Origin: Candidatus Salinicoccus stercoripullorum
Lineage (GTDB): Bacteria; Bacillota; Bacilli; Staphylococcales; Salinicoccaceae
Assembly (NCBI GenBank): GCA_019113295.1
Contig: DXHR01000003.1
Span: forward strand, 1-64,000
DNA: 64,000 bases
Reading direction: 5' to 3'
Every line of letters starts with the position of its first letter. Position 1 is the first letter of the stretch. A model generated the notes under the pieces. The model was not told the DNA's origin and made no database searches. It saw nothing but the letters and a program-made list of their open reading frames with translations. The position numbers and the translations under genes were made by a program. Below, piece after piece: positions 30,424-33,028 of the stretch.

Positions 30424-30561
30424 TTGATTTATTGGATGTGAAATCAAGTTGTTTTATTTTCTCGAATTAAATAAACTTTTTGATCGTACAAATAATCAAA
30501 TCGTGCCTTTTTTCGCATATATATAGGAAAAGGGCTTTTTTATTTGAGGAGGGGATCTTTA

Positions 30562-31533
30562 TTGAAGCGGAAGAAGACTTTGGAACATCAGTGGCTGGAA
30601 GTGGGAGGACGCAGACGGGGATTGGACGGCCGGGGTGCCGGCGAATTGAAGCGGCTTCAGCGCGGTTTTGAAGGCGAGGTCGAGATGGACCGGTTCGTCG
30701 AGGCATATGGCGGAAACGGATGGCAGGTCTATCGGGATGTATGGCTGGACTGCGGCGGCATCACACAGATCGATATAATGATCGTCACGGCAGGTGGGAT
30801 ATATGTATGTGATGCGAAGAACTATTCAGGCGATTATGTCTATGCGGATGGGAGGTGGTATGCCGGCGGGCGGCTGCTCAACCGGGATATTTTCGTGCAG
30901 CTGAAGCGCTCGATGGAAAAGGTGAATGATATGTGTACACGGATCGGGCCGGATATCAGGGCAGAGGGAGCGGTCGTGTTCGTGAATGAACACTTTGAGC
31001 TGGAGATGGAATCATCCGTATTTGAGCGGGTGGTGATGCGCAACCGCATCAGGAAATATCTGGTGGAGATAGATACGGCGGCGGTTGCTGGACGGCTGCA
31101 TGTGGACCGGCTGTGCCGGGCGGTTGAGACATACATGATAGAAAATCCATATAAGCCGCCGGTGTGTGATGCAGGGATGTACAGTTTGCTTGCGAAGGGG
31201 GTTAATTGTGTGGGGTGCGGGAGTTATGGAGTCGGGGTGGGATATCGATTTATCCATTGCCAAAATTGCCGTATGAAAGAAGGGAAAGAGAAAGGAATAC
31301 TAAGAATGATTTGTGAATATGGAGTGCTCATGCATCATAAAGATTTGATACTGCACGATATATATGAATTTTTAGGAGGGGAAGTGGAAAAAAGATATTT
31401 AAAAACAATTCTGGGAAAATATTTTAAAGTGCTATCGAGAGGGAAATACGCTAAATATTCTAATCCAAGGCAGATATTTGATTATTCTTTTGGCCATCTA
31501 AGCTTCTTTTATAAAGATGTTGCTGCCAGATAG
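30562..31533 (+). CDS. NERD-domain (nuclease-related) protein with zinc knuckle
   Basis: 323 residues from TTG at 30562, placed 7 nt after GAGGAGGGG. The NERD domain (about 35-150) has the PD-(D/E)XK-like set: E38/E40 in GFEGEVEMDRF, D71 in QIDIMIV, and D84-x-K86 in CDAKNYSG. Cys pairs 216/219 and 233/236 form a probable zinc ribbon. The last ~90 residues are encoded by sequence much richer in A/T than the first 700 bases, suggesting a composite gene. Function unknown; some relatives lie in defence or mobile contexts. Followed directly by the hairpin array. Confidence 0.8.
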   Translation: MKRKKTLEHQWLEVGGRRRGLDGRGAGELKRLQRGFEGEVEMDRFVEAYGGNGWQVYRDVWLDCGGITQIDIMIVTAGGIYVCDAKNYSGDYVYADGRWYAGGRLLNRDIFVQLKRSMEKVNDMCTRIGPDIRAEGAVVFVNEHFELEMESSVFERVVMRNRIRKYLVEIDTAAVAGRLHVDRLCRAVETYMIENPYKPPVCDAGMYSLLAKGVNCVGCGSYGVGVGYRFIHCQNCRMKEGKEKGILRMICEYGVLMHHKDLILHDIYEFLGGEVEKRYLKTILGKYFKVLSRGKYAKYSNPRQIFDYSFGHLSFFYKDVAAR

Positions 31534-31541
31534 AATTTCCC

Positions 31542-31783
31542 TAATGTACGTCTCATTCGGGACGAAGCGTATGTTAAAGGGTTAATGTACGTCTCATGCG
31601 GGACGAGGCGTATGTTAAAGAGTTAATGTACGTCTCATGCGGGGCGAGGCGTATGTTAAAGGGTTAATGTACGTCTCATGCGGGACGAGGCGTATGTTAA
31701 AGGGTTAATGTACGTCTCATGCGGGACGAGGCGTATGTTAAAGGGCTAATGTACGTCTCATCCGGGACGAGGCGTACGTTAAA
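31542..31783. repeat. Six tandem 41-bp palindromic repeats
   Basis: The motif TAATGTACGTCTCAT recurs at 31542, 31583, 31624, 31665, 31706 and 31747, an exact 41-bp period. In each unit TTAATGTACGTCTC can pair over 14 positions with GAGGCGTATGTTAA in RNA, using three G-U pairs, around a 9-nt loop (ATGCGGGAC). Unit 1 has a mismatch in the stem; unit 6 has changes that keep it paired. The array starts 8 bp after the NERD stop and ends before the folD terminator. Confidence 0.95.
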
Positions 31784-31804
31784 ATATTTGGGATAAGAAA
31801 CAAT

Positions 31805-31831
31805 AAAACCACACCCAGCAAAAGGGTGTGG
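31805..31831 (-). terminator. Terminator of folD
   Basis: CCACACCC / GGGTGTGG around a 7-nt loop is followed on the minus strand by TTTTATTG. Confidence 0.8.
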
Positions 31832-31849: not shown

Positions 31850-32701
31850 TCATTCTACTCCATTGTGCCATTTGGCGGCGAGTAATGTGTTGTTCAGGAC
31901 CATGGTGATTGTGAGCGGGCCGACGCCGCCGGGCACTGGTGTGATCCAGCCGGCTTTTTCTTTGGCGGCGTCGAAGTCTACGTCACCGACGAGTTTGTCG
32001 CCGGCCATTGTGTTGCCGACATCGATCACAATCGCACCGTCTTTGATATGTTCGGCTTTGACGAGTCCCGGGGAGCCGACGGCACTGACGATGACGTCGA
32101 ATCTACTCAGTTTTTCGGCCATGTTACGCGTACGGGAGTGCATCAGCGTGACGGTTGCATTCTGGTCGGTCAACAGTTTTGCGACGGGCTGGCCGACGAT
32201 GTGTGAGCGTCCGATGACGGCAACATCCTTGCCTTCAAGCGGCCCTGTATGCTTGAGGAGTTCCATGATGCCGAGCGGTGTACAGGGGATGAATGTGCGC
32301 TGGCCTGTATACATGCGGCCGATATTGACCGGGCTGAAGCCGTCGACATCTTTGTGGGGTGCAATGGATTCGAGCACCTTTTCTTCACTGATCTGATCCG
32401 GCAGGGGGACCTGCACGAGGATTCCGCTGACATTGTCGTCGTTGTTCAGCCGGTCGAGTTCTTCCAGGACCTCGTCTTCGGTCGCATCTTCACCCAGATG
32501 GACGATGTCGGACGTCATGCCTATCTTTTCGGCCGCCTTGTTCTTTGACCGTACATAACTGAGAGAGGCTCCATCGCTGCCGGCGATGATGACTGTGAGA
32601 TTCGGTGTTATACCGTTTTCTTTCAGTTTTTCAACTTCTTCTGCGAGTCCGGCGCGGTAATCTTTGGCGATTTCGCGTCCGTTCAACAAATTTGCTGTCA
32701 T
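31850..32701 (-). CDS. folD: Bifunctional methylenetetrahydrofolate dehydrogenase / methenyltetrahydrofolate cyclohydrolase
   Basis: 283 residues from the ATG ending at 32701 (GGAG 7 nt upstream; an ATG at 32707 is too close to it). Catalytic Y49 and K53 lie in [31 protein letters not shown] and the NADP site [16 protein letters not shown] are all present. It supplies 10-formyl-THF, used by PurN and PurH of the divergent pur operon, and shares its upstream region. Confidence 0.96.
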
Positions 32702-33028
32702 TTTCATTCTCCTATCTAATTAGTCTGGCTCTCTCCATTATCCATAACCTGCCTGAAAATTTCCACAGTGAATACTGATCGGTGCCCGGGTCATACTAAT
32801 GTAAGCTGAACCCGTATTACACTTATGAAGACGAAATACACTAAAATAGGTGAAAACCATAAAAAATACGAACGTATATAGTATGTGTACGAATATAACG
32901 TTCGTAAACACATACAATCTAATCAATATTTTTTTAATCGTTCGTTTTTAAGTTGAATAAAGTCCCCGCTATTGTTAAACTGAGCATGAGTTGAAAACAA
33001 ACATATTTCAAAGCGAGGTTATACTATT
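32702..33028. promoter_or_regulatory. Divergent folD-pur control region with PurR-box-like motifs
   Basis: ACGAACG at 32868-32874, and on the opposite strand GTTCG at 32900-32904 and 32940-32944, match the CGAAC core of PurR boxes. A promoter follows: -35 TTGAAT (32953-32958), 17 bp, -10 TAAACT (32976-32981). The leader before purE is only about 40 nt, so there is no room for a purine riboswitch. Spacing of the boxes differs from the B. subtilis pair, so the exact operators are uncertain. Confidence 0.6.

Follow-up and report, generated by a model that had tools for sequence, protein, structure and literature searches.

Why should six nearly identical repeats, most of them able to form a hairpin, stand directly behind a gene for a NERD-domain protein, and do they belong with that gene, with its transcript or with neither? 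The locus lies in what we call the window, the 64,000 nucleotides analysed here (positions 1 to 64,000 of contig DXHR01000003.1 of Candidatus Salinicoccus stercoripullorum), and its features are collected in Table 1. Tandem Repeats Finder placed the array at 31542-31783 (period 41, 5.9 copies, 95% matches, no indels, score 435) and returned no other strong tandem array within the window. A gap of 8 bp separates it from the NERD stop (ORF end 31533), and folD follows on the opposite strand; repeat finding, ORF calling and Pfam thus bear out the six-unit array that the first-pass annotation had placed at this distance from the gene. The same annotation gave every unit except the first a 14-bp stem, which holds for units 2-5 (-15.4 to -15.5 kcal/mol, z approximately -3.6 to -4.4); unit 1 indeed shows a weaker fold only, but the main stem of unit 6 is 13 bp, its outermost pair being gone. 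The replacement of a wobble by a Watson-Crick pair in unit 6 is genuine as the gain of a G-C pair, but it altered one side of the stem only and so is not compensatory. An Rfam scan of the window gave nothing at the gathering score, and the exact 41-nt spacing of units that touch, without spacers, rules out a CRISPR, as had been judged at the outset.

Table 1. Features of the NERD-array locus (window coordinates)
Feature	Position	Strand	Basis
NERD nuclease gene, 329 codons + stop, start codon approximate	30544..31533	+	ORF; Pfam PF08378 residues 40-147; orthologs and paralogs aligned
NERD / PD-(D/E)XK catalytic domain, conserved D77 and K92	30661..30984	+	Pfam, alignment, fold match Z up to 9.6
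Putative four-cysteine zinc-ribbon-like segment, C222, C225, C239, C242	31207..31269	+	Alignment
C-terminal winged-helix-like domain, candidate repeat reader	31285..31491	+	Model pLDDT 92; winged-helix matches Z 5-5.8
Repeat unit 1 (degenerate)	31540..31580	+	
Repeat unit 2	31581..31621	+	
Repeat unit 3	31622..31662	+	
Repeat unit 4	31663..31703	+	
Repeat unit 5	31704..31744	+	
Repeat unit 6 (without outermost pair; one wobble changed to Watson-Crick)	31745..31785	+	
Probable folD terminator, hairpin then T run, beyond the array	31809..31831	-	Sequence by eye
folD, convergent neighbour; anchor for cross-species site comparison	31850..32707	-	PF00763, PF02882

A second contig of the same genome carries eight 41-bp units that are ~75% identical to the window array, with agreeing stems and differing loops, between convergent genes for mannose-6-phosphate isomerase and a membrane protein (assigned by eye); no NERD-like ORF was noticed in the 12 kb read around it. 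BLAST with the array in 59 relatives found matches in its own genome only, and scans of genome and viral collections for the exact pattern of the window stem gave no match because the repeat turns over fast. To regard the array as an oddity private to one genome would nevertheless be misleading: what relatives have in common is the period and the location of the array, not its sequence. Arrays of period 41 but quite unlike sequence occupy the same place, at the folD and isomerase loci, in three relatives (G002, G004 and G007) and in two genomes of another genus (G012, G017); a periodicity scan gave periods of 51, 52 or 61 at these loci in further genera. Near folD in one relative, three successive arrays differ in sequence and all have a 51-bp period (L018:647-735, 809-971 and 1063-1358, G013), and a 61-bp-period array lies near folD in another family of the order (L032:2925-3211, G033). 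A covariance model of the window repeat (R1), which the first-pass annotation had suggested building, recovered a few diverged units in Salinicoccus halodurans CGMCC 1.6501 (G005), of the same genus as the window genome, and marginal single matches elsewhere. A third locus of S. halodurans (L082, G005:C9:196058-196139), whose folD-linked NERD gene is broken, has two adjacent diverged units of the window type, which are probable relics.

Across relatives, a tandem array was found at the stop codon in 53 of 69 distinct NERD loci, counted one per distinct gene and, coming from related genomes, not fully independent. These 53 arrays start between -25 and +150 nt from the stop (median +9), have a median of 4.9 copies, and have periods of 39-42 (47 arrays) or 50-52 (six), with none at 43-49. 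NERD genes occur in several copies per genome (seven in the window genome, eleven in G020 and 8 in G079), nearly every copy beside an array of its own distinct sequence. In G020, an array adjoined 10/10 of the NERD genes fetched vs 17/365 other ORFs (p = 6e-13). On these comparisons the link between NERD gene and array is well supported: nearly every NERD paralog in this bacterial family, salt-loving kin of the staphylococci, has its own 3' array. The earlier placing of the array with the NERD gene is thereby upheld, and of the three roles then guessed for it, only that of substrate for the neighbouring nuclease-like protein fits.

Arrays also occur away from NERD genes. We sampled G020 in twenty evenly spaced 20-kb stretches (18% of the genome) and found ~15 arrays, most without a NERD gene; this genome has many more NERD-free arrays than NERD genes, and most of the NERD-free arrays sampled abut at least one gene 3' end. 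Of the 14 arrays classified, thirteen have their match in G020 itself, in an array linked to a NERD gene (two of the 13 themselves flank a NERD gene), with scores of 15-41 within their own genome against best scores of mostly 10-13, maximum 19, for 42 arrays taken from other genomes; the remaining one has its match next to a NERD gene of a sister species. A single repeat type occupies ~27 places in G020 and ~7 in G016, and is rare or lacking in the other congeners. In equal 400-kb samples, ~15 arrays of period 39-42 were found in each of the NERD-rich genomes G020 and G079, and no intergenic array of that period in G011, G042 or G057, which have 0-1 NERD genes by Pfam. The first-pass annotation had held that units scattered at random intergenic sites, with no tie to NERD and no compensatory changes, would reduce the array to an ordinary REP-like repeat. 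The outcome is mixed: the repeats do lie scattered, yet those away from NERD genes belong to the types found beside such genes. Several NERD-free arrays of G020 (L152:15115-15403, L150, L153, L148 and others) tend to have a G/T-rich left side and an A/C-rich right side, giving rough inverted arms, a tendency that the composition near convergent terminators might also produce. A regular spacing of 65-66 nt over ~2.3 kb in G057 (L284:7022-9299) looks like an ordinary CRISPR array and is unrelated to the 41-bp arrays.

Whether the repeats work as RNA or as DNA can be asked of the family as a whole. The window array alone invites an RNA reading, as its sense strand folds much better than its antisense strand (-16.6 vs -8.2) and its G-U pairs are biased to the NERD strand, and a median start 9 nt past the stop codon would likewise suit hairpins that stabilise the 3' end of the NERD mRNA or that the NERD protein uses to regulate this mRNA. 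The 53 NERD-linked arrays do not follow suit. The better-folding strand is the sense in 26 and the antisense in 27, and non-Watson-Crick dyad positions are G-T in 81 cases vs A-C in 68. Compensatory support is absent, since none of the 14 units known in the window genome carries a pair changed on both sides, and three of the 14 have C-A at a stem position. Most G020 arrays, moreover, lie outside NERD transcripts, and arrays on the 5' side occur too, making an RNA element of the NERD transcript very improbable. The selection on RNA structure proposed in the first-pass annotation is therefore rejected as a family trait, the G-U bias being a feature of the window array and not of the family. Watson-Crick dyad symmetry exceeds that of shuffled sequences (mean z 1.85; p < 0.05 in 23/53 arrays), and periods near 41, 51 and 61 correspond to about 4, 5 and 6 helical turns. 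In the sequences compared, dyad symmetry, the lack of strand preference and helical periods together point to DNA as a better fit than RNA, and a hairpin may be extruded from either strand.

PF08378 is the sole Pfam family in the window protein (53.6 bits vs a curated cut-off of 22.1), and family membership is borne out by conserved catalytic residues: the motif is D-x-K here and E/D-x-K in relatives, with D77 invariant and K92 nearly so. Over ~330 residues the protein runs from a helical start through the NERD domain and four cysteines (C222, C239 and C242 invariant and C225 in at least 90% of 44 sequences) to a C-terminal winged helix. A model of the full protein (mean pLDDT 93.3) gave VC1899 as best fold match (Z 9.6, rmsd 3.0 over 119 residues), followed by Can2, Cdn1 and McrC, all PD-(D/E)XK nucleases, and the winged-helix matches of the C-terminal part alone are weak and to a common fold, but consistent. 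The NERD protein is thus a predicted PD-(D/E)XK nuclease with a winged helix. No PDB entry matched it by sequence, plasmid records gave nothing with two NERD query proteins and phage records nothing with one, and defence families gave nothing beyond weak matches, including one to MkoA. NERD domains occur in 236 of 299 sampled Bacillota genomes.

Among closely related pairs, mean identity is 0.66 in the winged helix and 0.79 in the NERD domain, so the former diverges the faster of the two. With NERD-domain identity controlled for, repeats are more alike where winged helices are more alike, a small effect (r 0.084; 6/1000 permutations, p 0.006); repeat similarity does not follow NERD-domain identity once winged-helix identity is controlled for (r 0.004). 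A chimeric NERD protein (L109 in G032) resembles L113 over its first 230 residues and L108 in its C-terminal part, and its repeat is L108-like. We discount it as proof of repeat recognition because the array is physically linked to the C-terminal half of the gene, and one recombination tract explains the pattern equally well.

In type III toxin-antitoxin systems a repeat RNA, folded as a pseudoknot, binds and inhibits an endoribonuclease. By analogy, NERD could be a toxin nuclease curbed by a tandem-repeat RNA made from its array, and the NERD-free arrays orphan antitoxins. The length and number of the repeats resemble those of ToxI-type RNAs (PMC8860590), each nuclease has its own repeat type, and NERD domains are known in some defence systems (PMC10952713). 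Yet the repeats lie downstream, abutting the NERD stop, whereas in described type III systems they are sought upstream of the toxin (PMC8860590), and neither folding of the 53 arrays nor wobble pairs favour a strand. The modelled fold, moreover, would be that of a DNA-type PD-(D/E)XK nuclease, and G020 holds far more NERD-free arrays than NERD genes. A system of this kind is therefore unlikely.

Arrays come and go between closely related genomes. In an 11-kb stretch of G020 aligned to eight sisters, two arrays are missing elsewhere. At the first site G020 has ~370 bp with seven units where G023 and G016 have 41-47 bp, comprising a terminator; at the second (L152:6582; L303-L307) G020 carries 12 units and G023 ~4 that belong to another type, and the remaining sisters have one degenerate unit or lack the repeat. 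The exchanger-NERD-folD site can be followed further. Nine genomes with an intact NERD gene there have ~1.5 (G003), 2.5, 2.8, 4.1, 4.4, 4.9, 5.1, 6 and 7.4 units, and six with a broken or remnant gene (G005, G006, G008, G009, G010 and G011, the remnants in G009 and G011 being judged by eye) have about one degenerate unit, with perhaps a further half in G006. G001, which lacks NERD at this site, has no unit. At least two copies are thus present in 8/9 intact vs 0/6 broken cases (p ~0.001 by hand, ignoring kinship among what are few, phylogenetically linked cases). G026 was left out of this count since its array is interrupted by a transposase-like gene, which breaks the NERD-adjacent array just past its start (L102). 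Among NERD orthologs 60-86% identical, the repeats are mostly at near-background similarity, while arrays within one genome agree. Judged from these alignments, repeat turnover is concerted evolution, in which arrays would copy one another, or be replaced from some source, faster than the gene diverges.

Such turnover bears on two further explanations. Tandem identical units in variable copy number are the typical outcome of replication slippage, and the array could be an ordinary minisatellite in which NERD has no role; arrays are nonetheless enriched at NERD genes, one repeat type is common to NERD-linked and distant arrays of a genome, about one unit is left where NERD is broken, and the three NERD-poor genomes have no intergenic arrays of period 39-42, so that we give slippage hardly any credence. 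The other explanation has the arrays serve the host: bound by the NERD nuclease, they would organise or insulate the DNA lying between gene ends, or else contribute to an anti-phage function. The helical phasing of the periods would suit such a role, as would the position of most sampled NERD-free G020 arrays against a gene 3' end and the presence of NERD domains in defence proteins. Gain and loss of arrays between sister species, the decay of NERD copies to pseudogenes and the lack of any but weak matches to defence families argue against it, and we regard it as improbable.

What can be read directly from the sequences is that arrays pair with NERD genes, that NERD copies each have a repeat type to themselves, that arrays of these types also stand elsewhere in the genome without NERD, that sister species have empty sites and that the tandem array is lost where NERD is broken. 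On balance we think it probable that array and NERD gene together make up a nuclease-satellite module whose way of working is that of REPIN/RAYT but whose enzyme is unrelated, and we infer that NERD acts on the repeats. Each NERD protein would have as partner its own ~41-bp imperfect DNA palindrome, spaced near whole helical turns, which it would bind as double-stranded DNA or as an extruded hairpin and then cut or nick. Repair from sister units or other arrays would expand and homogenise arrays, and would occasionally seed them at tolerated places such as gene ends. Several observations count against the nuclease-satellite reading: no array was detected at 16/69 NERD loci, arrays also stand on the 5' side of some NERD genes, which the model leaves unexplained, no target-site duplication was identified at arrays, and repeat change between orthologous NERDs appears fast for a protein-DNA code.

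More tentatively, and with somewhat less than even confidence, we suggest a new class of mobile repeat, in which a PD-(D/E)XK nuclease reads its own phased palindrome through a fast-evolving winged helix; cutting and repair would create, homogenise and disperse arrays in trans, and nuclease copy and satellite would co-evolve and turn over within genera. We found no earlier account of such repeats with NERD in the open papers searched. If true, the nuclease-satellite reading would describe a second enzyme-satellite partnership, built on an unrelated nuclease, and such pairs would have arisen more than once; it would also provide a Gram-positive model of repeat birth, spread and death. The same reading offers a role for stand-alone NERD proteins, where NERD domains are mostly unexplained, and predicts that arrays collapse once NERD is removed.

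Four known systems invite comparison. CRISPR arrays share short palindromic repeats and regular spacing with the NERD-linked arrays, but their repeats are parted by unique spacers, whereas NERD-linked units touch. As in the type III toxin-antitoxin systems ToxIN and CptIN, a nuclease gene adjoins short tandem repeats with their own sequence at each locus; unlike theirs, the NERD arrays lie downstream, show no strand preference and are often NERD-free, and the predicted nuclease fold is of DNA type. The NERD domain (PF08378) also occurs in phage-defence systems, Mokosh type I and Nhi-like (PMC10952713). The proteins studied here have PF08378 in common with these, besides the weak MkoA match, but are stand-alone, of ~330 residues, with a C-terminal ribbon and winged helix, and paired with repeats. 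For short repeats that bacteria maintain through a dedicated enzyme, the textbook example is REPIN/RAYT, in which RAYT cuts the single-stranded repeat. Each RAYT adjoins its own cluster of the palindromic REPINs that it presumably mobilises, a genome with three flavours having been described, and a genome with several RAYT genes has an equal number of flavours, each spread over intergenic sites (PMC3116915); the enzyme differs from NERD, and the repeat is tagged (PMC8266576). The likeness is a repeat cluster beside a cognate nuclease-type gene together with dispersed repeats of the same type. The differences are that the enzyme is a NERD PD-(D/E)XK protein with a winged helix in place of the Y1 HUH tyrosine transposase RAYT (TnpA-REP), that NERD-linked units, read side by side, share no common GTAG-like tetranucleotide tag, and that NERD repeats run head to tail in long arrays with a phasing near 41 or 51 bp, whereas REPs are mainly inverted doublets or singlets. 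Enzyme and tag thus set the NERD arrays outside the REP/REPIN-RAYT family, and by analogy they would still work like it.
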